A stretch of 36,839 nucleotides of DNA, taken from positions 1 to 36,839 of IMG/VR virus record IMGVR_UViG_3300043409_000737. One strand, written 5' to 3'. Both the position numbers and the translations under genes were made by a program. This DNA is from a virus. Numbering within the stretch: position 1 is the first letter of the stretch; every line of letters starts with the position of its first letter. A model generated the notes under the pieces. It was not told the origin of the DNA. It saw only the letters and a program-made list of their open reading frames with translations, and ran no database searches. Below, in pieces: positions 307 to 22,173 of the stretch.

Positions 307-582
307 ATGGAATTCTTCAAAATCGTTGCGGAACTTGGTTTCCCAATTGCAGCTGCACTAGCTGCAGGTTACTTCGTATTCCTAACACTTAAATTCATTT
401 TAGCTGGAGTTACAGGTTCTGTAAACTCTATTAAAGGTATCATCATGGCTCTTGATAAAAGAGTTGCAGCAATGAATCATGATGTTATTCGAATCGATAC
501 GAAAGTATCTCATGCACTGGGTATTCCCCCAGATTTAGACAGGATTGCTCGAGCAGAGCAAAGTGACGCACGGAGAGATTAA
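307..582 (+). CDS. Small membrane protein, holin/BhlA-like layout
   Basis: A 91-residue protein with one hydrophobic segment near the N-terminus (about residues 10-36, Gly/Ala-rich) followed by a heptad-like hydrophilic part (about 45-75) and a charged tail. It shares the pattern FPI-x-AA-x3-GYFV and the later D-V/L-I-R-I/L-x3-KV with the gene at 775, so the two look like diverged paralogues. One membrane helix followed by an amphipathic helix is the layout of small phage or bacteriocin-associated holin-like proteins, but no family can be assigned firmly. It opens the cluster leading into the curli genes. Confidence 0.7.
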   Translation: MEFFKIVAELGFPIAAALAAGYFVFLTLKFILAGVTGSVNSIKGIIMALDKRVAAMNHDVIRIDTKVSHALGIPPDLDRIARAEQSDARRD

Positions 583-774: not shown

Positions 775-1092
775 ATGGATGTTGTTGAGTTAGTCAATAA
801 GTATGGATTCCCAATAGTAGCAGCAGGTGGGTTGGGGTATTTTGTATATTATGTTTGGAAGTGGGTAACAGAAGAAATTAAACCAGTTACAGGTGAGGCT
901 AGTAAAGTTCTGATTGATCTAATCGATCGCATTAGGATGTTGGATAACGATCTTATCCGTTTGAATCAGAAAGTGAATGTTATTTTGTCTTTGCGAGAAC
1001 AAGGTAAAACCACAGAAGATGGCGGAAAAACAGATGTTAAAGCATCACTTAAAAAACCTAGTAGTAATAGCGAGTCTAGTAATAACGAATAG
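775..1092 (+). CDS. Small membrane protein, paralogue of the gene at 307
   Basis: A 105-residue protein with one hydrophobic segment (about residues 8-31, GFPIVAAGGLGYFVYYVWKW), a helical region containing D-x-LIRLNQKVN like its paralogue, and a low-complexity Ser/Asn/Lys tail. The tail is overlapped out of frame by the signal peptide of the CsgF-like gene, so the tail composition may be constrained by the second frame. The start follows the previous stop by two bases. Function is unknown; holin-like or a membrane partner of the curli export cluster are both possible. Confidence 0.7.
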   Translation: MDVVELVNKYGFPIVAAGGLGYFVYYVWKWVTEEIKPVTGEASKVLIDLIDRIRMLDNDLIRLNQKVNVILSLREQGKTTEDGGKTDVKASLKKPSSNSESSNNE

Positions 1093-1492
1093 TTATGCAA
1101 CACCATTACCAGACTTTGCATTCAAATCTCCATCCTTTAATGGCAATGGATACTCATCGCATGTTCTCACAATAGAGAACCAAGAGTTCACTCGCAGACA
1201 ACAAGTAGCAAAAGACATTCAAGCAGCATTAGATAAAGCAAAATCTGATACTGCTAATACGAACATTGCTAAGTTTATGAACAACTTAGAATCTCGTATC
1301 TACGCACAGATCTCCCAAAACTTGGCAACCGCAATGTTTGCCAACGGAGGTTCAAATAGCGGATCATTAAACTTTGAAGGTAACACAATCTTTTGGACTA
1401 AGGATAGTTCAAATGTATATCTCACTGTAACTGATACAGTTGGAAATCAAACTACAGTAACTGTACCACTAGGACAGTTTGTATTTCAATGA
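1034..1492 (+). CDS. csgF: CsgF-like curli assembly factor
   Basis: A 152-residue protein with a signal peptide at residues 1-22 (MLKHHLKN then a hydrophobic core, cleavage after NSYA). The mature N-terminus PLPDFAFKSPSFNGNG matches the CsgF pattern of an aromatic F-x-F-x-(S/N)P-x-F-x-GN followed by a stretch ending Q-x-(F/A); in CsgF this segment plugs the CsgG channel. The C-terminal strands (IFWTKDSSNVYLTVTD and TTVTVPLGQF) match the beta-rich end of CsgF. It is directly followed by csgG, overlapping by 4 bases, as in bacterial csg operons. The start at 1034 gives a clean signal peptide; an ATG at 1019 is the alternative. It overlaps the upstream gene by 59 bases. Confidence 0.87.
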   Translation: MLKHHLKNLVVIASLVITNSYATPLPDFAFKSPSFNGNGYSSHVLTIENQEFTRRQQVAKDIQAALDKAKSDTANTNIAKFMNNLESRIYAQISQNLATAMFANGGSNSGSLNFEGNTIFWTKDSSNVYLTVTDTVGNQTTVTVPLGQFVFQ

Positions 1493-2604
1493 GAAATGTA
1501 GTTTTATCCGTTCTAATCCTATTGCTGTCAGGGTGCGCAGTAATACAGAAAGCTGGACTTGAACACAAACCAGAGGTAGCACCCAATAAACTCGAGAAAG
1601 AGTTTGATGCTATACCATCACCAGATGGTAAAAAAGTAACAGTTGCTGTTTATAGTTTCACTGATAAAACTGGACAAAAGAAACCAACTCCAGGAATAGC
1701 TTCGTTTTCATCAGCAGTTACGCAAGGTGGTGAAGTGTTTTTAATTCGTGCTTTGCAAGATGTTGGAAGAGCACAATGGTTTGATGTAGTTGAACGAGTG
1801 AATGTGGATAATCTGACAAAGGAAAGAACTATCATTCGTCAGATGCGTGAAGCATATGAAGGTAAAGAAGCAAAACCACTAATGCCACTCCAATTTGCTG
1901 GATTGATTATGGAAGGTGGTATTATTGGTTATGACTCTGGTTCTGAATCAGGTGGTGCTGCACATAGGTTTCTGGGTATCGGAACTCAAACACAATATTC
2001 AAAGGATACGGTAACAGTATCTTTAAGAGCAGTATCTGTCAATACAGGTAAAGTATTGGTAGCAGTCACAGTGACTAAAGTTGTATATTCAACAGCCGAC
2101 TCTGTGGCTGTATTAAAGTTTTTAAATAATGGCACTCAGGGATTCGAAGCTGAGGCAGGTTTGACTATTAATGAACCAGGAACACTGGCAGTGAAGGCAA
2201 CTATTGAAGCAGCAGTTGTTGAGTTAATAAAAGAAGGTGAAAGAAGAGGTGTATGGGATTACAAGAAACCAGTAGTCACTGCTCCTGTTGTTATACCTGA
2301 AGTCATCATACCTGAAAAGAAAGTTGAAGAAAAGAAACCAGAGGTAGTTATTATACCTGAAAAGAAAGAAGAACCAAAGGTTGAAGAAAAGAAGCCAGAG
2401 GTAAAACCTTCAGTTATGATTTTGATAAAAGATGTTTATGTTACAAATATACCAGATGGACCAGTAAAAATGTGGTTCTTTGGTAAAAATAAAGAAGTGG
2501 TAATTAGCAACCCAGTTGACAGTAGTAGTGAGTGGGTAGAAGTTAAAGATAAAATCGGGAGAAAAGGATATACCAAAAGAGAAAACCTAAAGGAGAAGAA
2601 TTAG
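1489..2604 (+). CDS. csgG: CsgG-like outer-membrane curli secretion channel lipoprotein with C-terminal extension
   Basis: A 371-residue protein with lipoprotein signal peptide and lipobox LLSGC, lipidated Cys16. The body (about 40-265) follows CsgG: V-x-VY-x3-D-x-TGQ-x-KP, a long stretch with ER-x2-I-R-x2-RE, IMEGGIIGYDS, SGGAAHRFLGIGTQTQY and the transmembrane-hairpin region, ending GERRGVWD. CsgG forms a nonameric pore that exports curlin subunits across the outer membrane. After residue 270 comes a Pro/Glu/Lys repeat region with two copies of an IIPEKK...EEKKPEV unit, then an SH3-like domain (about 310-371) not found in E. coli CsgG. The SH3-like part could bind peptidoglycan (inference). 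The stop lies in a hairpin that precedes the first curlin gene. Confidence 0.93.
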   Translation: MRNVVLSVLILLLSGCAVIQKAGLEHKPEVAPNKLEKEFDAIPSPDGKKVTVAVYSFTDKTGQKKPTPGIASFSSAVTQGGEVFLIRALQDVGRAQWFDVVERVNVDNLTKERTIIRQMREAYEGKEAKPLMPLQFAGLIMEGGIIGYDSGSESGGAAHRFLGIGTQTQYSKDTVTVSLRAVSVNTGKVLVAVTVTKVVYSTADSVAVLKFLNNGTQGFEAEAGLTINEPGTLAVKATIEAAVVELIKEGERRGVWDYKKPVVTAPVVIPEVIIPEKKVEEKKPEVVIIPEKKEEPKVEEKKPEVKPSVMILIKDVYVTNIPDGPVKMWFFGKNKEVVISNPVDSSSEWVEVKDKIGRKGYTKRENLKEKN

Positions 2605-2628
2605 GGTTTTAACCTAATTCATAAAAAG
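2591..2628 (+). promoter_or_regulatory. Split ribosome binding site: AGGAG, 8-bp hairpin, then the curlin ATG
   Basis: AGGAG at 2591-2595 is 33 bases from the ATG at 2629, too far for normal initiation, and no closer Shine-Dalgarno sequence exists. Between them lies a perfect 8-bp stem (GAATTAGG 2598-2605 with CCTAATTC 2613-2620, 7-base loop). If folded, the effective spacing falls to about 10 bases. T4 gene 25 is a known example of a hairpin bringing a distant Shine-Dalgarno sequence into position. A competing hairpin (2582-2590 with 2601-2610) would instead put AGGAG in a loop. The csgG stop codon lies inside the hairpin, so translating ribosomes could switch the structure. Confidence 0.6.
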
Positions 2629-3435
2629 ATGTCAAGAAGAATCAAAGGAAACGGCAGTATTCCGAGAAAACTTACTGCAATTCTAACATTGGCTGCGATG
2701 TCAATGTCGGGATATGCTGCGGATAACAGCATATATGTCGATCAGGCTGGTGATAACAGCACGATTACAATAACCCAAGATGGTGCTGGAAATACGGTAA
2801 GAGGTTTACCTGGAGTTGGCACTAGTAGTATAACCCCAGCAAAAATTTGGGGTAATAACAATACCGTAGTTGTTGATCAGATTGGTAGTAGTAACATGTT
2901 GAGATTTGGTATTGATACTACAACAGGTGGAACAGGGACACCTAACATTCGTTATAGCGTAACAGGTAATAATGCAGATGCAACAATTAAAAGCATGAAT
3001 CCTGGACTGGCAAATGATAGTCCAATAATTGATGTTCAACAACTAGGAAATTTCTCTCTGTTGAATATTGATCAAACTGGTACTGGTCCAAATAATAGCA
3101 TCACTGCAATACAAAGCGGTGGTAACAACAATAGTTTATCTGTTAATCAAAATAGCAATACTACATCTACAGTTAGTGTTAATCAAACTGGTGGCGGTGG
3201 TAATACAACTGCGATCAATCAAAGTCAAGGTAAGAACGATGTTAGTTTAATTACACTTGGTGCAACTAATACAACAACGATTAATCAAACTGGTGATAAC
3301 CAAGCAGTCATTAATATTACTGGATCTGGAAACAACACTGCGCTAACACAGAGTAATCTATCTGGTGGTAATAATATATTCAACTACGCTGGTGTAGGTT
3401 CAGGTAATAATGTAACAGTTATACAGAACAAGTAA
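2629..3435 (+). CDS. Curlin-repeat secreted protein (CsgA/CsgB-like)
   Basis: A 268-residue protein with an N-terminal signal peptide (basic region 3-14, hydrophobic core 15-28, cleavage near residue 30 after GYA). The rest is a series of curlin-type repeats: N-S/N-x-I/V-x-V-x-Q-x-G-x-x-N-x-x-x-I-x-Q, for example around residues 33-56, 77-92, 133-165, 165-200 and 213-250, extremely rich in Asn, Thr, Ser, Gly and Gln. Such repeats stack as beta-strand-loop-strand units into amyloid fibres once secreted through CsgG. Which of the two curlins acts as nucleator or main fibre subunit cannot be told. Length exceeds E. coli CsgA (151). It sits directly after csgG and uses an unusual split ribosome binding site. 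Confidence 0.88.
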   Translation: MSRRIKGNGSIPRKLTAILTLAAMSMSGYAADNSIYVDQAGDNSTITITQDGAGNTVRGLPGVGTSSITPAKIWGNNNTVVVDQIGSSNMLRFGIDTTTGGTGTPNIRYSVTGNNADATIKSMNPGLANDSPIIDVQQLGNFSLLNIDQTGTGPNNSITAIQSGGNNNSLSVNQNSNTTSTVSVNQTGGGGNTTAINQSQGKNDVSLITLGATNTTTINQTGDNQAVINITGSGNNTALTQSNLSGGNNIFNYAGVGSGNNVTVIQNK

Positions 3436-3436
3436 A

Positions 3437-4540
3437 ATGAAATACCTTATATTATGTTTTGTGCTTTTACCTACCATTGGATTTTCAGCAGTGGGTAAGA
3501 TTACTGAGCAGGTAAACGCAGTCCCTTCAATCCAGAGAAATAAAGAAACTATTTCTGGTGCGAAGGGAACTGGTGTTGAGATGAATGATGCAATTAAAAC
3601 AACTCGTGGTAAAGTTGGTATTACATTTGCAGATGATACTAAAGTAGAAATAAATGAAAACTCTAGACTGGTCATTGACGATTTTGTCTATGATCCAAAA
3701 GCAAAGACAGGTAAACTAGCAATGAAAGTTGCTCTGGGTACTGTTCGTTACGCATCTGGGCAAATCGCCCACAACAACAATCAAAATGTAAACATCAATA
3801 CACCAACTGCCACTGTTGCAGTTCGTGGTACTGACTTCACTGCCACTGTAGATGAGGTTGGTGCTTCAACGATTATTCTTCTTCCAACATGTCCAGGAAA
3901 TAAAATACCAGTTGATGTATTAAAAGATTGTTACACTGGAATTATCGATGTTATTACTGATGGTGGTGTAGTTACCCTAACTAGACCATTCGAAGCGACT
4001 AAAGTATACGATCGTTCACTTGCTCCAATGAAACCAGTGGTACTCAATTTATTGAATTTTGATATGCTGAACAATATGCTTATTGTTTCACCACCAAAAG
4101 AAATTAAAAAAGAAGAAGACAGAACTAGAGTTTCTCAGACTGGAGCATTGAGTATTGACTTTTTAAGAGAGAACTCACTAGTCAATGCTTTAGATGCACA
4201 ACAGAAAGAAGTGTTTCAAGATAAACTATCAAGAAATTTACTTGATCAAAACTTTCTAGCAAATGTGTTGGATATTATTAATGCGCAAATGGCTGCACAA
4301 TTAGATTTACTTAACAATAGTAAATCAGGATTGCTTCCAGATTATGTTGCCACCAGCGGAGTTATTGCTGAGGTTGACGATGTATCTGTAACTCTTTTTA
4401 GAAATGATGGTTCCAACACACAAAGTGTAACTGTTCCTAAGAACCAGAACAGTACAATAAAACAACTACAAGGTTCAGTTGAAATTACGAACAGAGTTAA
4501 CAGTGGTGGTTCTACTGTAATTATTTTAAGGCAGAACTAA
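3437..4540 (+). CDS. Secreted FecR-domain protein
   Basis: A 367-residue protein with a signal peptide (cleavage near residue 18, GFSA). Residues about 20-190 are a FecR domain: a glycine-rich N-terminal strand region, TTRGKVGITFADDTKVEINENS, and the diagnostic TPTATVAVRGTDF (about 124-136). In TonB systems FecR transmits signals across the envelope, but free-standing secreted FecR-domain proteins are commonly encoded next to CHASE2-cyclases, as here. The C-terminal half is helical then beta-rich and unassigned. The start follows the curlin stop by one base and its stop overlaps the second curlin by TAATG, so the cassette is probably translationally coupled. Confidence 0.85.
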   Translation: MKYLILCFVLLPTIGFSAVGKITEQVNAVPSIQRNKETISGAKGTGVEMNDAIKTTRGKVGITFADDTKVEINENSRLVIDDFVYDPKAKTGKLAMKVALGTVRYASGQIAHNNNQNVNINTPTATVAVRGTDFTATVDEVGASTIILLPTCPGNKIPVDVLKDCYTGIIDVITDGGVVTLTRPFEATKVYDRSLAPMKPVVLNLLNFDMLNNMLIVSPPKEIKKEEDRTRVSQTGALSIDFLRENSLVNALDAQQKEVFQDKLSRNLLDQNFLANVLDIINAQMAAQLDLLNNSKSGLLPDYVATSGVIAEVDDVSVTLFRNDGSNTQSVTVPKNQNSTIKQLQGSVEITNRVNSGGSTVIILRQN

Positions 4541-5112
4541 TGAAAATATTTTTAATAACATTTTTTATTAGTGTAAATGCGCTTGCTGCTGATTCATTGG
4601 TAAACATTACTCAAGTTGGTTCTAATAATGTAATCAATATTGAACAATACAATGCTGCACATAATGCATCTATAAATCTTGGATTATCATCTGCAGTTGA
4701 CAATACAAACATAAGTATAGTCCAAAGAGATACTGGTGTAAAAACTGCCACAGTAGAAATTCGATCAGGAATAAACAATGGAGTTAATATTTTACAACAA
4801 GGTGCTGGTACTCATAATTCCAGTATTCAGAATTTAAGTGGTTCTGGTAATAATATAAACATTGATCAAAATGGAGCAGGTAATCATGAGTTTAATATTG
4901 TCACTGGTACTGGTACAATAAACAGTGGTAATACTATCAATGCAACACAGGCTGGTGGTGCTGGCGCAGATAAATCGTTCCAAGTTAATTTAAATGGAGC
5001 CACTGGTGCAGCAGTGACTGTGCAACAAACAAACCCCACTCAAGCCAATCAAGGTTCTATGAATATACAATGTTCTGCAGGTTGTGGAGCGTGGTCATAC
5101 ATTAGAAACTAA
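4540..5112 (+). CDS. Second curlin-repeat secreted protein
   Basis: A 190-residue protein with signal peptide MKIFLITFFISVNALA cleaved near residue 17. The mature part carries curlin-like repeats such as LVNITQVGSNNVINIEQ and GNNINIDQNGAGNHEFNI, with the Q-x-G-x-x-N signature repeated at intervals of about 20-25 residues. A C-terminal IQCSAGCGAW holds two cysteines absent from the first curlin, possibly a disulfide or cap. It lies between FecR and the cyclase, which argues that fibre and signalling genes form one unit. Start and preceding stop overlap by one base. Confidence 0.85.
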   Translation: MKIFLITFFISVNALAADSLVNITQVGSNNVINIEQYNAAHNASINLGLSSAVDNTNISIVQRDTGVKTATVEIRSGINNGVNILQQGAGTHNSSIQNLSGSGNNINIDQNGAGNHEFNIVTGTGTINSGNTINATQAGGAGADKSFQVNLNGATGAAVTVQQTNPTQANQGSMNIQCSAGCGAWSYIRN

Positions 5113-5123
5113 ATAGTAAGAAA

Positions 5124-7157
5124 ATGAACAGACTAATGAAAAAATTACTATCACCATGGATGGCACTAGTAACCCTAGTGCTTTTGGTCATTATTAGAAT
5201 GGCAGATCCATCTTTTGTCGAGTCAGTTCGTCTTCGTTATTTTGATCAACTAATAACAAGTAAAGGTGCAACTACCTCTGAACAAGTGGCAGTTGTAAAC
5301 ATAGACGATGCCTATATTCGACAAAAAGGACAGTTCCCATTCCCTCGTGGGCAGTATGCCCAACTGGTTGCTGATTTGTATTCTCATGGTGCTGGGTTGG
5401 TTGTCCTTAACATCTATATGCCTGAGTCTGATCGTTTTGGTCAAGATGCTCAGTTAGAAAAATTAATGAAACAAGCACCTGTGATTTTACCACAGACTGC
5501 TACTAATGATAATATTAAAAATAAGTATCCACCATTTACTCCAGGTGTTTCTGTAATTGGTGGCTCTGCTGAAACTACAGGAATTAGATACAATGCTATT
5601 GAACCCAACATCAAACTTTTTAATGACTCTGCTGCTGGTATTGGTGTTGTTAATACTCTCCCCGAAATTGATGGCGTCACCAGAAGAGTACCAATGGTCG
5701 TCAATGCAGGTGGGCAATTGTTCCCTAGCATTAGTTTGGAAACGCTGCGTGTTATCTCAGGAGACCCAAGTTTCCAAGTCAAAGTCACCGATGGAGGAAT
5801 CGAAGCTGTCCGCATCCCTAAATTCGGAAAAATTACTACAGACGAGATCGGTAGAATTTGGATTGACTCCAACAAACAACCTGCTGTATACTCAGCAAGC
5901 AACTTACCAAAAGACTTTGGTGGTAGAATCGTTATTGTCGGGCTTACAGCTAAAGGTCTTACAAACCCTGTCGCCACTGCCAGTGGATCCAGCTATCCAC
6001 ATTATATTCAAGCAGCAGTTTTAGATACAGTAACAAGTGGTTCCGTAATCAGCAGACCAGAATGGTCATTGCTGGCTGAGTTGGTATTTATGATAGTGAC
6101 AGTTATTCTCTCAATCTATCTTACAAGGTTTACACATGGATACATCTTTGCGATCGCTCTATCAGCACTCGCCTATTTTGGTGGCTTCCAATTATTTACT
6201 GGATACGGCTATCTACTTGATGCTGTGTTCCCGATTCTTACCATTATCCTCTGCAGCTTCCATGGATACATTGTCAAATTCCTTGTCGAGTTGCGTGCGA
6301 AACTCCAAATCAAGAAACAGTTTGGCGGATATGTATCTCCAATTATTGTCAACCAATTGGCAGAAGATCCAGAAGGTGCAGCAGAACGACTAAAGGGTGA
6401 GAAACGAGATCTGTCTATCGTTATGACAGACTTGCGTGGTTTCACTACACTGGGTGAATCATTCGGTGCTGATGTGCAAGGATTGACTGCTGTCATGAAT
6501 CGCTACATGGATGCATTGTCTAAGCCAGTACTGAAGAATGGTGGTTGTATTATTAAGTTTATTGGTGATGCCTCACTACATGTGCACAATGCACCAGTTG
6601 ATGACGAAGACCATCCAGTTACTGCAGTTCGTACTGCTCTTGAAATGATTCAAGCCATTGAAGAGTTCAATAAGGTTCTTCAAGCGGAAGGTCGTCCACC
6701 TGTTGGTATGGGTGCTGGTGTAAACACTGGTCCAACTCTGATTGGTAACATTGGTGCCAACGATCGTTATGGTTATGATGTGTTGGGTGATTCGGTTTCC
6801 ACTGCTGCACGACTTGAAGGACAAACAAAAGGTTATGGAGTTCTACTGGTTATTGGTCCAGATACAGCAGAACGAGTGAAACATGTTTATGATGTAGCAC
6901 AACTTGATTGTATCGCAGTAAAAGGTAAAACAATAGGACTTCACATATATGCAATCGCCAAAGTTGGTGAGAAGCATCAGCAGTATCTAGATGCGTACTA
7001 CTCAGGTGATTGGAAACAGGCTAAAAAACTATGTCAGGATTTGATTACGCAAAAGATAACTCCAGATCTGAACCACTATTACGAACTAATGTTAGAAAGA
7101 CTGGAACAGGGCAAACCAAACAATTGGGACGGAGTTTACCACGCAACGAGCAAGTAG
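5124..7157 (+). CDS. CHASE2-domain class III adenylate cyclase
   Basis: A 677-residue membrane enzyme. TM1 at about 12-27, an extracytoplasmic CHASE2 sensor (about 28-310), three TM helices (about 314-334, 338-358, 362-384), then a class III cyclase domain (about 425-590). Visible catalytic positions are metal Asp436 (TDLRGFT), Asp482 (FIGDAS), adenine-selecting Lys478 and Asp552 (YDVLGD), and transition-state Arg563 (AARLE). The usual transition-state Asn four residues before that Arg is Ser559 (DSVSTAAR). Lys/Asp suggest ATP specificity, making cAMP. The C-terminal helical tail (about 610-660) is typical of CHASE2 cyclases. The CHASE2 part probably senses a periplasmic signal, perhaps with the adjacent FecR protein (inference). 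Confidence 0.93.
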   Translation: MNRLMKKLLSPWMALVTLVLLVIIRMADPSFVESVRLRYFDQLITSKGATTSEQVAVVNIDDAYIRQKGQFPFPRGQYAQLVADLYSHGAGLVVLNIYMPESDRFGQDAQLEKLMKQAPVILPQTATNDNIKNKYPPFTPGVSVIGGSAETTGIRYNAIEPNIKLFNDSAAGIGVVNTLPEIDGVTRRVPMVVNAGGQLFPSISLETLRVISGDPSFQVKVTDGGIEAVRIPKFGKITTDEIGRIWIDSNKQPAVYSASNLPKDFGGRIVIVGLTAKGLTNPVATASGSSYPHYIQAAVLDTVTSGSVISRPEWSLLAELVFMIVTVILSIYLTRFTHGYIFAIALSALAYFGGFQLFTGYGYLLDAVFPILTIILCSFHGYIVKFLVELRAKLQIKKQFGGYVSPIIVNQLAEDPEGAAERLKGEKRDLSIVMTDLRGFTTLGESFGADVQGLTAVMNRYMDALSKPVLKNGGCIIKFIGDASLHVHNAPVDDEDHPVTAVRTALEMIQAIEEFNKVLQAEGRPPVGMGAGVNTGPTLIGNIGANDRYGYDVLGDSVSTAARLEGQTKGYGVLLVIGPDTAERVKHVYDVAQLDCIAVKGKTIGLHIYAIAKVGEKHQQYLDAYYSGDWKQAKKLCQDLITQKITPDLNHYYELMLERLEQGKPNNWDGVYHATSK

Positions 7158-7554: not shown

Positions 7555-8024
7555 GTGAACCAGTTATGTATTCAGAAGAGCAGTTAATGGCTCGTTTAAA
7601 ATTCTTCATCGGTATCTGTCTATCATTTACCCTTGTTGGAATTGTTTTCGTAGTTCTCTACTCTATCATCTTTGTTACTCAGCCATTGAACGCTATCAGT
7701 CCTATTGACCAGAAGTTCTTTGAGTTGATCATCCCTATCGCTACATTCTTGACTGGTACTCTATCTGGTATTATGTTGGCAGGTGGAGATAAAGATGCAC
7801 AAAAAGCTGCACTGGCTGCAGCAAACAAAGGTTGGGACAAACCACCAACTCCACCTGCTCAATCTTTTAGCCAAACAACTACAACAACTATGGGTGGAAT
7901 GCCAAGACCAGCGATGGGCATGGGCATGGGTATGGCTCCATCAGTATCGCCACTAGCAAATGCAACTACAATGCCAGTGTATGAATCTGGTGATCCAACA
8001 TTCAGGAACAGTAGAAATGACTAA
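7551..8024 (+). CDS. Two-helix membrane protein with Met/Gly-rich tail
   Basis: A 157-residue protein with two membrane helices (about 15-40 and 55-75) separated by a short loop, then a cytoplasmic tail of Thr, Pro and repeated GMGMGM. AGGAG seven bases before the ATG at 7551 decides this start over the ATG at 7545. Similar two-helix proteins occur in marine T4-like phages without known function; holin-like activity is possible but not shown. Overlaps both neighbours by a few bases. Confidence 0.75.
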   Translation: MSEPVMYSEEQLMARLKFFIGICLSFTLVGIVFVVLYSIIFVTQPLNAISPIDQKFFELIIPIATFLTGTLSGIMLAGGDKDAQKAALAAANKGWDKPPTPPAQSFSQTTTTTMGGMPRPAMGMGMGMAPSVSPLANATTMPVYESGDPTFRNSRND

Positions 8025-8283
8025 TTCTCCTAACGAAGATTGGATGAATAGAAAATGGCGTCCAGCCATGGGTTGGACATACATGGTTATATGTATAACA
8101 GATTTTATTATATTTCCAATCATGTGGAGTCTGTTACAAAATAGTGCTGGACAGTCAATCACTCAGTGGAAACCACTAACACTTGAGGGTGCTGGTTTGT
8201 TTCATATGGCTATGGGTGCTATTCTCGGTATTGCTGCTTGGTCTCGTGGTCAAGAAAAGATTGCTAATGTAAAGGATGCATAA
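8017..8283 (+). CDS. Holin-like protein (GTA-type three-helix layout)
   Basis: An 88-residue protein with the layout WRPAMGWTYMVICITDFI... then LTLEGAGLFHMAMGAILGIAAWSRGQEKI. An N-terminal W-RP-x2-GW before the first helix and a C-terminal G-x-W/R-x2-EK after the last resemble the 3TM holin family of gene transfer agents and phages. Such proteins permeabilise the inner membrane to release endolysin. The only recognisable endolysin (GH19) is far away at 34 kb. The ATG follows AGGAACAG at suitable spacing and overlaps the previous gene by 8 bases. Confidence 0.65.
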   Translation: MTNSPNEDWMNRKWRPAMGWTYMVICITDFIIFPIMWSLLQNSAGQSITQWKPLTLEGAGLFHMAMGAILGIAAWSRGQEKIANVKDA

Positions 8284-16946: not shown

Positions 16947-16996
16947 TATAGCCATCGTGCTAGTAATATTGTTCTTTTACAATTCGGGATTCTGTT

Positions 16997-17069
16997 GGGG
17001 GTTGGTGTAGTGGTAGCACACTTGACTTTGACTCAAGTAGTACAAGTTCGATTCTTGTATCCCCTGCCA
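16997..17069 (+). tRNA. tRNA-Gln(TTG)
   Basis: Acceptor GGGGGTT/ATCCCCT with one mismatch, anticodon stem CTTGA/TCAAG with loop CTTTGAC, anticodon TTG, T-loop TTCGATT, encoded CCA. First gene of the array. Confidence 0.88.
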
Positions 17070-17108
17070 AACAAATGCGCATTGCGTAGAGATAGTGCTC
17101 ATCTGTTT

Positions 17109-17182
17109 GGGGGTGAAACTTTAAGGTGAAGTAACTGGCTTTTAACCAGTAAAATTCGGATCGTTCCCGAACACCCCTACCA
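17109..17182 (+). tRNA. tRNA-Lys(TTT)
   Basis: Acceptor GGGGGTG/CACCCCT, anticodon stem ACTGG/CCAGT, loop CTTTTAA, anticodon TTT, CCA encoded. The T-loop is ATCGTTC instead of the usual TTCGANN, so positions 54 and 58 are A and T rather than T and A. Confidence 0.85.
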
Positions 17183-17194
17183 GTGTTCTTTGGT

Positions 17195-17268
17195 GTGACT
17201 ATAACTTAATGGTAAAGTCGTGGATTGTGATTCCGCTTATCTGGGTTCAATTCCCAGTAGTCACCCCA
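17195..17268 (+). tRNA. tRNA-His(GTG)
   Basis: Acceptor GTGACTA/TAGTCAC, discriminator C, anticodon stem GTGGA/TCCGC with loop TTGTGAT, anticodon GTG, CCA encoded. Confidence 0.88.
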
Positions 17269-17278
17269 AAGAATACTT

Positions 17279-17354
17279 GCTGCTTTAGCTGATGTGGTCA
17301 TAGCAGGGGATTGAAGATCCTCGGAAAGTAGTTCGATTCTACTAGGCAGCACCA
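17279..17354 (+). tRNA. tRNA-Phe(GAA)
   Basis: Acceptor GCTGCTT/AGGCAGC, anticodon stem GGGGA/TCCTC, loop TTGAAGA, anticodon GAA, discriminator A, CCA encoded. Confidence 0.9.
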
Positions 17355-17361
17355 AGATTAT

Positions 17362-17436
17362 TGCCAATTAGCTCAGAGGTAGAGCAATCGCTTGATAAGC
17401 GATAGGTGAGTGGATCGTTACCACTATTGGCAACCA
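17362..17436 (+). tRNA. tRNA-Ile(GAT)
   Basis: Acceptor TGCCAAT/ATTGGCA, anticodon stem ATCGC/GCGAT, loop TTGATAA, anticodon GAT, CCA encoded. T-arm AGTGG/CCACT has loop ATCGTTA, again A54 and T58. Confidence 0.88.
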
Positions 17437-17443
17437 AAGTTAT

Positions 17444-17535
17444 GGAAGATAATGCAGCGGGGTTGGTCCTGCGACCAGCCTTGAAAACTGGGTTCTGAGA
17501 AATCGGATGGGGTTCGACTCCTCTGTCTTCCGCCA
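17444..17535 (+). tRNA. tRNA-Ser(TGA)
   Basis: Acceptor GGAAGAT/GTCTTCC, long variable arm as in class II tRNAs, anticodon loop CTTGAAA, anticodon TGA, discriminator G, CCA encoded. Confidence 0.88.
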
Positions 17536-17543
17536 TATTATGT

Positions 17544-17618
17544 GCCTCGTTATTTCAGTGGTAGAATGTCTCTTTTACACGGAGAAGGTCGGCAGTTCGA
17601 ATCTGTCACGAGGTACCA
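17544..17618 (+). tRNA. tRNA-Val(TAC)
   Basis: Acceptor GCCTCGT/ACGAGGT, anticodon stem TCTCT/GGAGA, loop TTTACAC, anticodon TAC, discriminator A, CCA encoded. Confidence 0.9.
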
Positions 17619-17624
17619 AAGTTT

Positions 17625-17699
17625 GCGTCATTAGTTCAACGGATAGAATTAGAGTCTTCGAAACTCAGGATGGTGGTTCGATTCCATCATGGCGCACCA
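17625..17699 (+). tRNA. tRNA-Arg(TCG)
   Basis: Acceptor GCGTCAT/ATGGCGC, anticodon loop CTTCGAA, anticodon TCG, T-loop TTCGATT, CCA encoded. Confidence 0.9.
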
Positions 17700-17705
17700 A
17701 GATTA

Positions 17706-17795
17706 GGAAGATGGGCAGGACGGTAATGCAGCAGTTTGCTAAACTGTAGATTCACGGAAGTGGATCATAGGGTTCGATTCCCTAATCTTCCACCA
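17706..17795 (+). tRNA. tRNA-Ser(GCT)
   Basis: Acceptor GGAAGAT/ATCTTCC, class II variable arm, anticodon loop TTGCTAA, anticodon GCT, CCA encoded. Acceptor arm matches the other Ser tRNA. Confidence 0.9.
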
Positions 17796-17800
17796 GTGTT

Positions 17801-17875
17801 GGGCTGGTAGCTTAATGGTAAAGCAGTGAACTCATAATTCATTGAGTCTGTGTTCAATTCACAGTCAGCCCACCA
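17801..17875 (+). tRNA. tRNA with CAT anticodon (elongator Met or Ile2)
   Basis: Acceptor GGGCTGG/TCAGCCC, fully paired so not initiator type, anticodon stem GTGAA/TTCAT, loop CTCATAA, anticodon CAT, CCA encoded. Either elongator Met or Ile2 (needing lysidine); another CAT tRNA lies at 19722. Confidence 0.85.
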
Positions 17876-17877
17876 AT

Positions 17878-17955
17878 GCCTCGATGGACAAATTGGAAAA
17901 GTCGTCTCTCTCAAAAGGAGAAATTCTGTGAGTTCGAATCTCACTCGAGGTACCA
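17878..17955 (+). tRNA. tRNA with CAA anticodon but a short variable loop
   Basis: Acceptor GCCTCGA/TCGAGGT, T-arm GTGAG/CTCAC with TTCGAAT, anticodon stem TCTCT/GGAGA with loop CTCAAAA, anticodon CAA (Leu codon TTG), CCA encoded. The variable region is only AATTCT, while bacterial Leu tRNAs have a long variable arm. Acceptor and anticodon stem resemble the Val tRNA at 17544. Confidence 0.75.
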
Positions 17956-17956
17956 G

Positions 17957-17985
17957 TTGACTTGTAAGATTGTTTGATGTATAAT
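17957..17985 (+). promoter_or_regulatory. Promoter inside the tRNA array
   Basis: TTGACT (17957-17962), 17-base spacer, TATAAT (17980-17985), just before tRNA-Leu(TAA). Nearly identical to the promoter at 18247. Confidence 0.88.
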
Positions 17986-17994
17986 AGAGTTAAT

Positions 17995-18078
17995 GCGAGT
18001 GTGGTGGAATGGTATACACATCAGACTTAAAATCTGACGCTTAATTGATTGAGGGTTCAAGTCCCTCCACTCGTACCA
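17995..18078 (+). tRNA. tRNA-Leu(TAA)
   Basis: Acceptor GCGAGTG/CACTCGT, long variable arm, anticodon stem TCAGA/TCTGA, loop CTTAAAA, anticodon TAA, CCA encoded. Confidence 0.92.
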
Positions 18079-18080
18079 AT

Positions 18081-18155
18081 ACGGCATTCGTTCAACGGAT
18101 AGGACATGGTTCTTCTAAAGCCAGAATGGTGGTTCGATTCCTCCATGCCGTGCCA
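18081..18155 (+). tRNA. tRNA-Arg(TCT)
   Basis: Acceptor ACGGCAT/ATGCCGT, anticodon loop CTTCTAA, anticodon TCT, discriminator G, CCA encoded. Confidence 0.92.
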
Positions 18156-18164
18156 GAGATAAAT

Positions 18165-18238
18165 GTAGGTGGAGCCAGTTGGACAGGCACTGGATTGCAA
18201 ACCCATGGAAGTGAGTTCGATTCTCACCACCTACTCCA
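18165..18238 (+). tRNA. tRNA-Cys(GCA)
   Basis: Acceptor GTAGGTG/CACCTAC, discriminator T (the Cys identity base), anticodon loop TTGCAAA, anticodon GCA, CCA encoded. The anticodon stem is weak, with two mismatches. Confidence 0.88.
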
Positions 18239-18246
18239 GATAGTTG

Positions 18247-18275
18247 TTGACTTATAAGATTGTTTGATGTATAAT
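18247..18275 (+). promoter_or_regulatory. Second promoter inside the tRNA array
   Basis: TTGACT (18247-18252), 17-base spacer, TATAAT (18270-18275). It precedes a structured non-tRNA stretch and tRNA-Glu. Confidence 0.88.
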
Positions 18276-18409
18276 AGTAGTTCTTCAAAAGTCCACTCTA
18301 AGTCTGCGGTAAATACGCAGCATGTGGCAAGGATGGCTTGATTGTTGCAACTCGCTTACAATCTCCCATGCATGCAAGTTTGGTAGTTCTTGATAAAAAC
18401 TACCACTAT
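18276..18409 (+). ncRNA. Structured RNA segment before tRNA-Glu
   Basis: No gene. Hairpins CTGCG/CGCAG (18304-18308 with 18316-18320), GCATG/CATGC (18320-18324 with 18367-18371) enclosing GATTGT/ACAATC (18340-18345 with 18358-18363), then GGTAGTT/AACTACC (18382-18388 with 18398-18404). Transcribed from the promoter at 18247. Confidence 0.5.
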
Positions 18410-18484
18410 GCACTGTTCGTCTATCGGTTAGGACATGCGGTTTTCATCCGCATAAGAGGAGTTCGACTCTCCTACAGTGTACCA
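18410..18484 (+). tRNA. tRNA-Glu(TTC)
   Basis: Acceptor GCACTGT/ACAGTGT, anticodon stem TGCGG/CCGCA, loop TTTTCAT, anticodon TTC, discriminator A, CCA encoded. Confidence 0.92.
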
Positions 18485-18485
18485 G

Positions 18486-18712
18486 ATTTAATTACATTGG
18501 TTACCAAGCCAGTAGGTAATTCAGATAGTGAGTAACCAGTTGACGGACTGGCACTTCTGAGTTACACGAAAGATGGAAATCAGCATAGGCTTCGATCAGT
18601 AGTCACGCTGGAACAGCTTGGAATGTAATGTGTGCGACAGACAAGTCCATGGACGGCATGGTAGGGCAGGTTCAAAACTGTTTATTCTGTCAAACATCCA
18701 GTGTAATTAAAT
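18486..18712 (+). ncRNA. Structured RNA domain A closed by a 15-bp helix
   Basis: The 227-base stretch directly after tRNA-Glu is closed by 18486-18500 pairing with 18698-18712 (15 bp, one G-T). Inside, GTAAC/GTTAC (18532-18536 with 18561-18565) and CCAGT/ACTGG (18536-18540 with 18547-18551) form a nested arm. No credible reading frame is present. Not a tRNA and no tmRNA or RNase P signature was seen. Confidence 0.6.
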
Positions 18713-18714
18713 GT

Positions 18715-18863
18715 GGTATTAGTTTAGTGTTATCAAGGTATCGTGATCTGATCAATCACTATTCGGGTTCAATCGGCTGGAGACGAATCCTAACATAACT
18801 GCCTCAGCTTTGGATGGGAAGCACCCAACTCCTAAATTGGCACGATAACACTAAACTAATATC
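18715..18863 (+). ncRNA. Structured RNA domain B closed by a 20-bp helix
   Basis: The 149-base stretch is closed by 18715-18734 pairing with 18844-18863 (20 bp, one G-T wobble), a likely double-strand nuclease site. Inside are GTGAT/ATCAC with a 7-base loop and ATTCG/CGAAT hairpins. It begins two bases after domain A and ends three bases before tRNA-Tyr. No gene is present. Confidence 0.62.
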
Positions 18864-18866
18864 ATT

Positions 18867-18951
18867 GGAGACACGGCACAGTTGGAGGGGTGCGGCAGAC
18901 TGTAAATCTGTTCTTTAGGGCTAGTAGGTTCGAATCTTACTGTCTCCACCA
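18867..18951 (+). tRNA. tRNA-Tyr(GTA)
   Basis: Acceptor GGAGACA/TGTCTCC, class II variable arm, anticodon stem GCAGA/TCTGT, loop CTGTAAA, anticodon GTA, discriminator A, CCA encoded. Confidence 0.92.
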
Positions 18952-19172
18952 AAATCTCGATCACTACAAGCGTGATTGTAGTCGCTTACTCAGCGTTACG
19001 AGTCGGGGGTGGTCAACCGTAAAGCAGAGTGCCCAGTAACATCCAGGAATGTTACATATAAGGGAGTCCGAACCACTGGATAGAACTGTAACTATCAAGA
19101 GATCAAAACACAGTGACAGAGTGTGCAACTCAAGTAAGGGCGATGTAGAAGTCGTAGCTTACACCGAATTTA
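18952..19172 (+). ncRNA. Structured RNA domain D between tRNA-Tyr and tRNA-Asp
   Basis: No gene in 221 bases. Hairpins: ACTACAA/TTGTAGT (18963-18969 with 18976-18982), GTAACAT/ATGTTAC (19036-19042 with 19049-19055), GATAG/CTATC (19079-19083 with 19092-19096), GTAAG/CTTAC (19134-19138 with 19158-19162). No long closing helix as in domains A, B and C. Confidence 0.5.
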
Positions 19173-19247
19173 GGCTCGTTAGTATAATGGTCATTACAGC
19201 GGATTGTCTATCCGCTTATGGGAGTTCGATTCTCCCACGAGTCGCCA
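19173..19247 (+). tRNA. tRNA-Asp(GTC)
   Basis: Acceptor GGCTCGT/ACGAGTC, anticodon stem GCGGA/TCCGC, loop TTGTCTA, anticodon GTC, discriminator G, CCA encoded. Confidence 0.92.
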
Positions 19248-19377
19248 GTTTTGTGAATGCTGTTTACAGCAACCGAGTTATAAGTTTAGGGTTGAGGCTC
19301 TAATATCGAAAGATAATTAGTTTACTAATACCGTGTTACAAGTGAAGGGTTGAGGCTCTTCTTCACAAATTTATTAT
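19248..19377 (+). ncRNA. Structured RNA domain E with repeated loop GGTTGAGGCT
   Basis: Tandem small hairpins: GCTG-TTTA-CAGC, TTAG-GGTTGAGGCT-CTAA (loop 19290-19299), TATC-GAAA-GATA (19304-19315, a GNRA loop), TTAG-TTTA-CTAA (19317-19328), GAAG-GGTTGAGGCT-CTTC (loop 19348-19357). The two 10-base loops are identical while the stems differ but pair. It lies between tRNA-Asp and the initiator-like tRNA. Confidence 0.55.
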
Positions 19378-19454
19378 CGCAGAGTATGGAAGTGGTCATC
19401 CGTCTGGTCTCATAAGCCATGAAATCGCAGGTTCGAATCCTGCCTCTGCAACCA
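19378..19454 (+). tRNA. Initiator-like tRNA-fMet(CAT)
   Basis: Acceptor is C1 opposite A72 (unpaired) followed by GCAGAG/CTCTGC, with A73 and CCA. The C1-A72 mismatch is the hallmark of bacterial initiator tRNA that formyltransferase recognises. Anticodon loop CTCATAA, anticodon CAT. The anticodon stem has two G-C pairs rather than the classic three, so initiator identity is probable, not certain. Confidence 0.8.
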
Positions 19455-19458
19455 AAAT

Positions 19459-19541
19459 GCCCTGATGGTGGAATTGGTAGACACGCTGGTCTTAGAAGCC
19501 AGTACTTCGGTGTGAGAGTTCGAGTCTCTCTTGGGGCACCA
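19459..19541 (+). tRNA. tRNA-Leu(TAG)
   Basis: Acceptor GCCCTGA/TTGGGGC, long variable arm, anticodon stem CTGGT/GCCAG, loop CTTAGAA, anticodon TAG, CCA encoded. Confidence 0.92.
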
Positions 19542-19721
19542 ATGTTGAGAGTGTGAGCAAAAGATTGGGCATCCCAACTGTTAGGGAAGAAATCGCCAGA
19601 CAAAAGAGCGTCCATTATATGGAGAGAATTTATGATCACCCATCATAGATTGAAATGCGTGATGATCTGGTGGCAGGTATTTAAAGCTGCCAACTAAACA
19701 CATAACAGTACTCTCAACATT
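19542..19721 (+). ncRNA. Structured RNA domain C, closing helix reaches into both flanking tRNAs
   Basis: 19537-19552 pairs with 19710-19725 over 16 perfect bp. The first four to five bases belong to the 3' CACCA of tRNA-Leu and the last four to the 5' end of the next tRNA. Inside, ACTGTTA/TAACAGT (19577-19583 with 19703-19709) stacks on the closing helix, with TGGCAG/CTGCCA (19671-19676 with 19687-19692) and TTGGG/CCCAA hairpins. No gene is present. Confidence 0.6.
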
Positions 19722-19796
19722 GGTGATGTAGCACAACGGTAGTGCAACTCCTTCATACGGAGTAGGTTAGTGGCTCGATTCCACTCATCACCACCA
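19722..19796 (+). tRNA. tRNA with CAT anticodon (Met or Ile2)
   Basis: Acceptor GGTGATG/CATCACC fully paired, anticodon stem ACTCC/GGAGT, loop TTCATAC, anticodon CAT, discriminator A, CCA encoded. One of this and the gene at 17801 is probably Ile2 read via lysidine. Confidence 0.85.
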
Positions 19797-19804
19797 AAAG
19801 TTTT

Positions 19805-19878
19805 CTCGGGTTAGTTTAGTGGTAAAACTCGTGCTTTGGGAGCATGGGTCGGAAGTTCGATTCTTCCACCCGAGACCA
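19805..19878 (+). tRNA. tRNA-Pro(TGG)
   Basis: Acceptor CTCGGGT/ACCCGAG, anticodon stem CGTGC/GCATG, loop TTTGGGA, anticodon TGG, CCA encoded. Confidence 0.9.
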
Positions 19879-19893
19879 GATAAGTAGATAGTT

Positions 19894-19967
19894 GCCCTAT
19901 TAGTATAATGGTATTACACCTGTTTTGTAATCAGGTTACGGCAGTTCGATTCTGTCATGGGGCACCA
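19894..19967 (+). tRNA. tRNA-Thr(TGT)
   Basis: Acceptor GCCCTAT/ATGGGGC, anticodon stem CCTGT/TCAGG, loop TTTGTAA, anticodon TGT, CCA encoded. Confidence 0.9.
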
Positions 19968-19988
19968 GATAAAATAACTAGGAGACAA

Positions 19989-20237
19989 ATGTTGAGAAAC
20001 ATGAAAGGTAAGAAGGTTAAAGAGTTTGGTAGTGTTGTTGTGGTTGAAGAAGGTAAGTTTGAGAAAGCATTCAGACAATTCAAAAAGAACATAGAAGAAA
20101 GTGGATTGTTAATGGATATCAGAGAAAGACAAGCATACATTAAACCAACCACGAAAAGAAAAATGGCAAAGAGTGCTGCAAAGAAACGCTGGAAGAAGAA
20201 ACTAGCACAGCAGTCAATGCCTGATAGATTGTATTAA
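19989..20237 (+). CDS. rpsU: Phage-encoded ribosomal protein bS21
   Basis: An 82-residue, very basic protein that matches bacterial bS21: after a phage-specific 12-residue N-terminal extension come VVVVEEGKFEKAFRQFKKNI, ESGLLMDIRERQAYIKPTTKR and KRWKKKL, parallel to [31 protein letters not shown] and KRHAKKL. bS21 is the last protein added to the 30S subunit, near the anti-Shine-Dalgarno end of 16S rRNA. bS21 genes have been reported in several aquatic phages. GGAG precedes the ATG at 19989. It sits inside the tRNA array, 21 bases after tRNA-Thr, so is probably expressed with it. The basic, helical C-terminus is complete. Confidence 0.93.
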   Translation: MLRNMKGKKVKEFGSVVVVEEGKFEKAFRQFKKNIEESGLLMDIRERQAYIKPTTKRKMAKSAAKKRWKKKLAQQSMPDRLY

Positions 20238-20257
20238 GATTATTAGAATGCAACGAG

Positions 20258-20788
20258 ATGAAGATATGTCCCAAGTGTAAAGTTAATCATAACAAGAATG
20301 GAACTCATTGTTCCAGAAAATGTTCTAACTCACGCACTTGGACAGATGAAGATAAAAAGAAAAAGAGTATTGCCAATAAAAAGTACTTTCAGAATAATCC
20401 GCATCCAACAAAAGGTAAACCTGGATGGAAACACTCTGATGAAATGAAACAACTTAAAAGACAATTGTCTCTTAAAGAATGGGATACAAGAGGTAGAAGA
20501 ACGATAGAAGAAAAAGCACTACAGAATAAAATAAATGTGCATAACTATCGAGCAAGAAAGATGAGAGCGACATGTCCAACTGCTGATTTAAAATTGATTA
20601 AAAGAATTATGGAAGCATGTCCGATTGGTTATGATGTTGACCATATTATTTCTATGAGTAATGGTGGACCACACCATGAAGATAATCTGCAGTATTTACC
20701 ATCTTCAGAAAATAGAAGAAAGAGTAATAAAGATGTTTATGATGAAAGTCTTGTCATTCGTTGGCAAGATGTATTGAAAGAAGGTTAG
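20258..20788 (+). CDS. HNH endonuclease with N-terminal zinc finger
   Basis: A 176-residue protein. Residues 4-22 form C-x2-C-x10-C-x3-C (CPKC...CSRKC), a zinc finger. Residues about 55-100 are basic and helical, probably DNA-binding. The HNH core is YDVDHIISMSNGGPHHEDNL with Asp128, His129 and Asn143, then SSENRRK. This looks like a free-standing homing endonuclease placed between the bS21 gene and tRNA-Asn, a common insertion site type in phage tRNA regions. The same zinc finger occurs in the gene at 24591 without an HNH core. Confidence 0.88.
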   Translation: MKICPKCKVNHNKNGTHCSRKCSNSRTWTDEDKKKKSIANKKYFQNNPHPTKGKPGWKHSDEMKQLKRQLSLKEWDTRGRRTIEEKALQNKINVHNYRARKMRATCPTADLKLIKRIMEACPIGYDVDHIISMSNGGPHHEDNLQYLPSSENRRKSNKDVYDESLVIRWQDVLKEG

Positions 20789-20795
20789 TTTATAT

Positions 20796-20874
20796 TCCGA
20801 GAAACCCGAGCAAGGTGCATGGGCGTGACTGTTAATCACTGGTTAGAAGAGTTCGATCCTCTTACTCGGAGCCA
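20796..20874 (+). tRNA. tRNA-Asn(GTT)
   Basis: Acceptor TCCGAGA/ACTCGGA with the last pair unpaired, anticodon loop CTGTTAA, anticodon GTT, discriminator G as in Asn, T-loop TTCGATC, CCA encoded. Confidence 0.88.
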
Positions 20875-20881
20875 AAGTTTT

Positions 20882-20955
20882 GGGGGATTAGTATAATGGG
20901 ATTACGGCAGCTTTGCAAGCTGTTTATGAGAGTTCGATTCTCTCATCCTCCACCA
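20882..20955 (+). tRNA. tRNA-Ala(TGC)
   Basis: Acceptor GGGGGAT/ATCCTCC, anticodon stem GCAGC/GCTGT, loop TTTGCAA, anticodon TGC, CCA encoded. The Ala identity pair G3-T70 is present in the acceptor. Confidence 0.9.
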
Positions 20956-20957
20956 AT

Positions 20958-21031
20958 GCTCTGTTAGTTAAATGGTATAACAGTTGATTAGTAATCATCA
21001 ATTGGGAGTTCGATTCTCTCACGGAGCACCA
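20958..21031 (+). tRNA. tRNA-Thr(AGT), unusual A34
   Basis: Acceptor GCTCTGT/ACGGAGC, D-stem GTTA/TAAC, anticodon stem GTTGA/TCATC with one T-T mismatch, loop TTAGTAA, anticodon AGT, CCA encoded. Bacterial Thr tRNAs normally have G, T or C at position 34. A Thr(TGT) tRNA is also present. Confidence 0.82.
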
Positions 21032-21048
21032 AATTATAGGAGATAGTT

Positions 21049-21288
21049 ATGAGTGTGCATGTAATAAAATATTATCGTGGTAATGGTTGTGTATCGCAAT
21101 TTATTGGTGATGACGAGACAATGGCAAATGCTTTGTTTCATATGAATTTTTATTCATTTCTACCTGTAGACTTTGCGGTGACAAAAACAAACGCAGAACA
21201 TAAAGAGTATGCACTACGATTTGTTGCAGGTGGTTATTCTTGGGTAGAAGTTCAGTTGAATAACCCACAAAAAGAAATAGTACAATGA
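21049..21288 (+). CDS. Small phage protein between tRNA genes
   Basis: A 79-residue soluble protein, ATG preceded by TAGGAGATAG, so a good ribosome binding site. Aromatic-rich (Phe, Tyr, Trp), with no recognised motif and no membrane helix. Overlaps the next start by ATGA, so it is cotranslated with the zinc-ribbon protein. Confidence 0.7.
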   Translation: MSVHVIKYYRGNGCVSQFIGDDETMANALFHMNFYSFLPVDFAVTKTNAEHKEYALRFVAGGYSWVEVQLNNPQKEIVQ

Positions 21289-21485
21289 GTAATGGTGGTA
21301 AAGGTAGTAATCGTAGACCACTTAGTATACCAAAGGATGAATTTAATGATAAGTTTGATGCGATCTTTGGAGAGAAACGAATATACTGTGATGTATGTGG
21401 AAAGAAATTTTGTTGGTGCTCATGTGTAGCTGCACCAAAAGAAGTGGGTGACGCTATTGATAAAGCGTTGGGTATAGAAAGATAA
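21285..21485 (+). CDS. Small zinc-ribbon phage protein
   Basis: A 66-residue protein beginning MSNGGKGSNRRP, a start seen in many phage zinc-ribbon proteins, with a C-terminal YCDVCGKKFCWCSC cluster (C-x2-C-x4-C-x-C) likely to bind zinc. Its stop lies two bases before tRNA-Trp. Role unknown, perhaps nucleic-acid binding. Confidence 0.78.
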   Translation: MSNGGKGSNRRPLSIPKDEFNDKFDAIFGEKRIYCDVCGKKFCWCSCVAAPKEVGDAIDKALGIER

Positions 21486-21486
21486 T

Positions 21487-21560
21487 GTCTCTCTGGTGTA
21501 ATGGCAGCACGATGGTCTCCAAAACCATTAGTCGGAGTTCGAGTCTCTGGAGGGATGCCA
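21487..21560 (+). tRNA. tRNA-Trp(CCA)
   Basis: Acceptor GTCTCTC/GAGGGAT, anticodon stem ATGGT/ACCAT, loop CTCCAAA, anticodon CCA, discriminator G as in bacterial Trp, CCA end encoded. Confidence 0.9.
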
Positions 21561-21563
21561 AAT

Positions 21564-21637
21564 GCGGGATTAGTTTAATGGTAAAACTGTAGATTTCCAA
21601 TCTTCCGTTATCAGTTCGATTCTGATATTCCGCTCCA
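21564..21637 (+). tRNA. tRNA-Gly(TCC)
   Basis: Acceptor GCGGGAT/ATTCCGC, discriminator T as in bacterial Gly, anticodon loop TTTCCAA, anticodon TCC, CCA encoded. Confidence 0.9.
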
Positions 21638-21653
21638 ATTTAAAGAGGTAGTT

Positions 21654-22130: not shown

Positions 22131-22132
22131 TT

Positions 22133-22161: not shown

Positions 22162-22173
22162 AGTAGTAATGTG

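Follow-up and report, generated by a model that had tools for sequence, protein, structure and literature searches.

What would a T4-like phage do with a run of curli genes among which a FecR-domain gene and a gene for a CHASE2 adenylate cyclase are placed, and do the fibre and signalling genes make up a single device? This question is raised by a 36,839-base virus record, here called the window, which comprises the whole stretch of DNA analysed. In the window, csgF, csgG, a curlin gene (cur1), fecR, a second curlin gene (cur2) and the CHASE2/cyclase gene form one intact run at 1034-7157, with every frame open (Table 1). An earlier note, made from the sequence, had described these six genes in this way, and Pfam matches and open reading frames bear it out, in the case of curlin 2 by way of its orthologues and a structural model; the CsgG, CsgF, curlin, FecR and CHASE2 profile matches are all significant. 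That is, the second curlin gene does lie between fecR and the cyclase gene, and fibre and signalling genes are interleaved, as the note had it. Its description of the junctions as one-base or overlapping holds for csgF/csgG (4 nt overlap), cur1-fecR (1 nt gap) and fecR/cur2 (1 nt overlap), and fails for csgG-cur1 (24 nt gap) and cur2-cyclase (11 nt gap), all as read from the sequence. The interval that it assigned to the cassette was too narrow, since the genes of two small membrane proteins, TmA and TmB, also belong to the module.

Table 1. Positions of the module genes and of two lysis-related genes in the window.
Feature	Position	Strand	Evidence or remark
TmA, 91-aa single-TM protein	307..582	+	phrog_18771
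TmB, 105-aa TmA paralogue	775..1092	+	overlaps csgF start
csgF, 152 aa, signal peptide	1034..1492	+	Pfam PF10614 E 3.9e-13
csgG, 371 aa, predicted outer-membrane lipoprotein pore	1489..2604	+	Pfam PF03783 E 8e-47
Curlin 1, 268 aa, repeats only	2629..3435	+	Pfam Curlin_rpt PF07012 E 5e-7
fecR	3437..4540	+	Pfam PF04773 E 5.6e-10; AlphaFold2; PupR fold; tail statistics
Curlin 2, 190 aa, C-terminal Cys pair C178, C182	4540..5112	+	orthologues match PF07012; solenoid model
CHASE2 sensor + class III adenylate cyclase, 677 aa	5124..7157	+	Pfam PF05226 E 4e-38, PF00211 E 6e-16
3TM holin-like gene	7960-8283		GTA_holin_3TM, E 1e-7; shortly downstream of cassette
Endolysin	34050-34670

The surroundings of the cassette are those of a T4-like phage, with genes for an RNase H-type exonuclease, a dCMP deaminase, PhoH-like and MazG-like proteins, a 2OG-Fe(II) oxygenase, an endolysin, a NifU-like protein and a carbamoyltransferase. 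At 16996-22247 stand 26 tRNA genes in an array that serves most amino acids, and the T4 late promoter TATAAATA does not occur in the window. Among 50,697 phage records there is no near DNA match to the first 12 kb. Three independent metagenome contigs (L005, L006 and L085) contain much of the first 15 kb again, including all or parts of the cassette stretch, at 92-99% nucleotide identity. An assembly artefact or an integrated host operon, the objection that the earlier note had itself raised, is ruled out by these contigs and by the phage neighbours. We conclude that this is a phage module in a T4-like phage.

The set of genes has been described before. Wittmers et al. 2022 reported the order CsgF-CsgG-CsgA/B-FecR-CsgA/B-adenylate cyclase in pelagiphages (two families), preceded by one or two genes termed histidine kinases; the viral T8SS set is expressed in ocean metatranscriptomes, and viral curli modules are of general interest as widespread elements expressed across the ocean (PMC9599517). 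The csgF and csgG genes with unnamed partners were noted by Zaragoza-Solas 2020 (PMC7029224), and Buchholz 2022 proposed a lysis-related pore, taking csgA/B as missing, and saw no clumping in Melnitz-infected cultures (PMC9004378). The later papers that were found add nothing to this. The GenBank record of Melnitz (MZ577097) has the same set annotated gene for gene in the same order, and HTVC008M (KC465899) also carries the module. In the window, CsgF, CsgG, curlin and FecR occur in the published viral T8SS order together with the second curlin and the cyclase, and CsgE is absent. The window is a further member of the described module and not its first sighting; the Melnitz annotation and PMC9599517 rule out a cassette unknown to science, and the earlier note's statement that the full set was not known falls with it. 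A CsgG match in Salmonella phage S.Kent was disregarded, as it comes from a low-coverage node of 1.5 kb and clusters with CsgG of cellular origin.

Searches with CsgG and with the cyclase each retrieve dozens of viral contigs, some longer than 200 kb. Gene order is conserved over 138 loci, the commonest being TM-TM-csgF-csgG-curlin-fecR-(curlin)-cyclase. Synteny across phage genomes, which had been suggested as a check, is found in a set of phage loci selected by FecR and having at least 6 kb on each side: every locus has csgF and csgG (48/48), and all but one encode the cyclase (47/48). Where omega could be computed with enough changes, it is 0.05-0.22 for the pore, curlin, FecR and cyclase genes. 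These cassette genes are under purifying selection, and because this holds for all of them, the curlins are not remnants. The profile search confirms the absence of CsgE that had been noted for the window and extends it to twelve further, larger phage contigs, the longest of 338 kb (0/13 records, with a positive E. coli control). The cNMP-binding domain PF00027 is likewise found in 0/13 of the same records. Judged from the sequences, the module is real, conserved and functional-looking.

The genes for TmA and TmB, two short paralogous TM proteins, occupy the upstream position of the published 'histidine kinases'. Neither protein matches HisKA, HATPase_c or any other kinase family at E up to 5, and TmA matches no other family at that threshold either; the sole functional hint for the pair is a weak resemblance of TmB to holins (E 0.0036). 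Among phage records, TmA is found in exactly the six full-length records with CsgG. By ssDNA-binding protein (65.8%), the nearest non-curli relative of HTVC008M is Mosig EXVC030M, which is in neither the TmA nor the CsgG list. In ten viral contigs in which the pair does not adjoin the module within the locus around it, there are exactly two copies per contig, and the pair may precede or follow the module and may lie on either strand. Thus, TmA and TmB belong to the module, which is newly noted here, and they are phage-specific. From their position and shortness we infer that they are the short genes that Wittmers et al. called histidine kinases. The pair completes the module's gene list and casts doubt on the histidine-kinase label. 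A small ORF of about 62 aa, which falls in no assigned family, lies between the two genes, at 584-772.

CsgG pore homology, CsgF and curlin repeat subunits, the components of curli (type VIII) secretion, are all found in the window. The csgF start, ATG 1034, was picked by eye from the signal peptide, and the ORF is also open from 977. CsgG has a lipobox, LLSGC16, also seen by eye, and matches the solved E. coli CsgG across the whole pore (E 1.4e-45); its matched part is only 43-45% identical to the CsgG of cultured phages. Behind a Pro/Lys/Glu linker it carries an SH3-like C-terminal extension of 110 residues. Similar extensions in L104, L105 and L107 match SH3_4 above the curated cut-off, and the window's own extension falls below it. 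Some CsgGs in these modules, on this evidence, carry a predicted SH3 domain, newly noted here, which by the known CsgG topology would sit in the periplasm.

The two curlins differ in kind. Curlin 1 matches the NCBIfam CsgA model at E 5e-9, under that model's cut-off, and the major curlin subunit 8enq in the PDB at E 8e-4. Curlin 2 itself is too divergent for a Pfam match; its orthologues do match Curlin_rpt (L094, 63-64% identical, E 2e-7), and AlphaFold2 models curlin 2 as a regular beta-solenoid with a mean pLDDT of 84. A PDB structure search with this model listed no curlin, a result that is uninformative either way. Exactly two Cys occur in the last 45 residues of 37/38 proteins at the curlin 2 position and of 0/94 curlin 1 proteins, and the pair is invariant in alignments. 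The probable exception is L118, where a separate 664-aa non-curlin protein stands at the curlin 2 position. This conserved C-terminal Cys pair of the predicted second curlin is newly noted here. The second curlin of HTVC008M (L002:10638-11963), annotated as hypothetical, has a PA14 domain besides its curlin repeats (E 2.7e-6), which suggests an adhesive fibre part. Some modules encode an extra protein of 659-681 aa (L118:11370-13364, L114:6956-9001, L018:567-2546 and L093:7733-9718), with a signal peptide, a C-terminal strand ending in Phe and no Pfam match; these proteins appear similar to an outer-membrane beta-barrel or an autotransporter.

FecR opens with a signal-peptide-like start, continues with a FecR/CSS domain and, after a helical linker modelled at low confidence, closes with a C-terminal beta domain (~305-367). 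Its model matches PupR (6ovk) with a Z of 14.9 and an rmsd of 2.5 over 135 aligned residues, and BDI_1681 with a Z of 13.7. A further match, of residues 16-111 of the model to the 'cell surface anchoring domain' 5ix9 (Z 6.7; 73 residues at 25% identity), would agree with FecR serving in retention. The fold starts at about residue 20, straight behind the signal-peptide-like start, and Pfam gives no second domain. That is, the periplasmic FecR/CSS domain of anti-sigma FecR proteins is present, and their cytoplasmic anti-sigma domain and TM helix are not; by its predicted domains, the phage protein is not a canonical anti-sigma FecR, as it has no cytoplasmic sigma-binding part.

The FecR tail, in the AlphaFold2 model, has six strands at 309-366 with a spacing of about 22 residues and a pLDDT of 85-91, in the same layout as the curlin 2 model. 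A terminal strand motif, [IVLF]x[IVL]xQ, occurs near the C-terminus of 83/100 viral FecRs, as compared with 11/1,251 other ORFs. As the curlin-repeat HMM proved too narrow, the tails were scored with a position matrix trained on viral curlin repeats, and the medians are 11.5 for FecR ends, -12.9 for other ORF ends and 0.7 for shuffled FecR ends. We consider it probable that FecR ends in a mini-curlin tail, a likeness that stops short of proven homology. It is a plausible alternative, though one to which we give less than an even chance, that the tail is a small beta domain with no relation to curlin, which it resembles through composition and strand pattern. The Pfam Curlin_rpt model finds no match in FecR tails, shuffled tails retain part of the matrix score, and no curlin came up when the FecR model was compared with PDB structures, although this last result is uninformative either way. 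Against such an origin, the strand spacing and the terminal motif are common to curlin and FecR tail; the motif is found in 0/11 cellular FecRs near cyclases, several of them truncated by the locus end, and both Caulobacteraceae FecRs that belong to csg operons end in NVTQD. The curlin-like tail, newly noted here, suggests a physical link from fibre through FecR to the cyclase. We put forward, tentatively and as no better than possible, that phage FecR is a curlin-tailed sensor whose tail would join or cap the exported fibre and so couple the amyloid physically to the inner-membrane CHASE2 cyclase, such that the infected cell would gauge its own fibre export via cAMP. In the tail, fibre and signalling genes have a tangible point of connection, one whose residues can be deleted.

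The cyclase matches solved adenylate cyclases at E 2.8e-25, and the alignment shows that the metal-binding Asp residues D436 and D482, the adenine-binding K478 and D552, and the Arg R563 are all kept. The roles of these residues, and that of the transition-state Asn, we take to be those known from class III cyclases. This Asn is replaced by Ser559 in the window and by Ser also in L003, L040 and L060, and is kept in L059, L043 and others; the replacement may reduce cyclase activity. Two kinds of catalytic domain occur among viral CHASE2 cyclases, YDVLGDSVSTAARLEG (window, L003, L060) and YTCLGDSVNLASRLEG (L059 and others), as if a domain swap had taken place.

Taken together, we favor, at about even confidence, the reading that this phage-carried module serves type VIII (curli) export, includes an envelope sensor of its own and would be expressed in infected cells. 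The sequence data establish which genes are present, how they are ordered and linked, which domains they encode, and that they are conserved and constrained. The CsgG outer-membrane pore, with CsgF, would export curlin 1 and curlin 2, and these would form amyloid on the surface of the infected cell, curlin 1 supplying repeats only and curlin 2 a Cys-capped subunit with an extra adhesive domain in some phages. Periplasmic FecR would face the inner-membrane cyclase with its PupR-like domain, while its curlin-like tail would join, cap or bind curlin; the state of export or of the fibre would thereby be relayed, through a presumed contact, to the cyclase by way of its periplasmic CHASE2 domain, and the cyclase would alter cAMP. 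Since the phage contigs yielded no cNMP-binding domain, the receptors for this cAMP would have to be those of the host. The proteins TmA and TmB would be small membrane partners. The likely benefit would be a remodelled surface of the infected cell, serving adhesion or aggregation, or the exclusion of rival phages. Against this export module stands most strongly the lack of clumping in Melnitz cultures, together with the missing CsgE, the Ser in place of the catalytic Asn in the window's cyclase subgroup, and, for the FecR tail, the Curlin_rpt miss and the part of the score that shuffled tails keep.

The lack of clumping also counts in favor of a lysis or envelope-timing device of the kind proposed by Buchholz et al. 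2022, in which CsgG-CsgF and the small membrane proteins form a gated pore that would help to set the time of lysis and the curlins are secondary. The weak holin resemblance of TmB and the 3TM holin-like gene just downstream agree with such a device; its premise of missing csgA/B is countered by the presence and constraint of both curlins, the FecR tail is curlin-like, and other lysis genes, such as the endolysin, are present, and we regard it as unlikely. We find still less probable an uptake channel in which a CsgE-less, ungated CsgG admits nutrients or siderophores and FecR acts as an iron regulator (PMC9599517, PMC7029224). The missing CsgE and the FecR-type domain suit such a channel, which would leave two constrained curlins, CsgF and the curlin-like FecR tail unexplained, and phage FecR does not have the cytoplasmic anti-sigma portion that FecR proteins of iron uptake possess. 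That the curlins are virion or baseplate components, as the earlier note had also considered, is highly improbable: nothing was found in its favor beyond the proximity of the module to baseplate genes in HTVC008M and Melnitz, while the signal peptides and the lipobox, as read from the sequence, would direct the products to the envelope and argue for export by the cell over virion assembly.

Cellular counterparts of the export module bear on its origin. The best 80 cellular CsgG loci are mostly alphaproteobacterial csgF-csgG-curlin loci without FecR, cyclase or TM pair. Loci from MAGs that contain the TM pair were excluded because they are probably binned phage contigs; one public bin, Rhodobacteraceae Water_Bin34 (L139, L141, L145), contains the phage TM pair on five contigs and is thus contaminated by several phages. 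In L143 and L144, two loci from Caulobacteraceae MAGs, the order is csgF-csgG-cur-cur-fecR-cyclase without the TM pair, and the neighbours are genes for an amidohydrolase, an acyl-CoA dehydrogenase, a TonB-receptor, a peptidase and a glycosyltransferase. By its gene neighbourhood this is a chromosomal csg-fecR-cyclase operon, newly noted here, and the combination thus occurs in cells too. It runs counter to PMC9599517, according to which cellular T8SS operons do not include FecR and cyclase, though it is rare: a Caulobacterales survey found this FecR type in one genome among 299, that of L143/L144, and a sample of 398 taken across the phylum turned up this genome again, plus two weak partial matches. 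The L143/L144 cyclase branches next to the main viral clade, as its sister group (modest support, 82), and the CsgG of these loci groups among phage-bin sequences (95/90). CHASE2 cyclases of this type occur in 129/289 Alphaproteobacteria. A FecR gene lies within 300 bp of the CHASE2 cyclase gene in 6/40 inspected cellular loci, none of them with csg, and the two are therefore a recurring couple. The phage module looks like two cellular building blocks joined, together with a phage-only TM pair.

Compared with known systems, the window is closest to the pelagiphage T8SS module, with which it shares genes and order, including the second curlin that Melnitz also has between FecR and cyclase; it differs in its divergent CsgG with an SH3-like extension, in belonging to a phage rich in tRNA genes, and in upstream small TM proteins that have no kinase domain. 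With the csg systems of E. coli and Alphaproteobacteria it has CsgF, CsgG and curlin repeats in common, and with the latter also the order csgF-csgG-curlin, whereas FecR, the cyclase, the TM pair and the Cys-capped second curlin are added and CsgE is missing. The Caulobacteraceae operon resembles it in having one Cys-ended curlin, a similar FecR ending and a close cyclase (E about 1e-238), but has ordinary bacterial neighbours, no TM pair and both curlins ahead of fecR. In the alphaproteobacterial FecR-CHASE2 pairs, a FecR-domain protein adjoins a CHASE2 cyclase as in the phage module, but there is no csg, and the FecRs, often far larger, are without the curlin-like tail. Lastly, the FecR/PupR anti-sigma regulators share the periplasmic FecR/CSS fold with phage FecR, which instead has a signal peptide and no cytoplasmic anti-sigma part; the partner of those regulators is a sigma factor, whereas that of phage FecR would be the cyclase.
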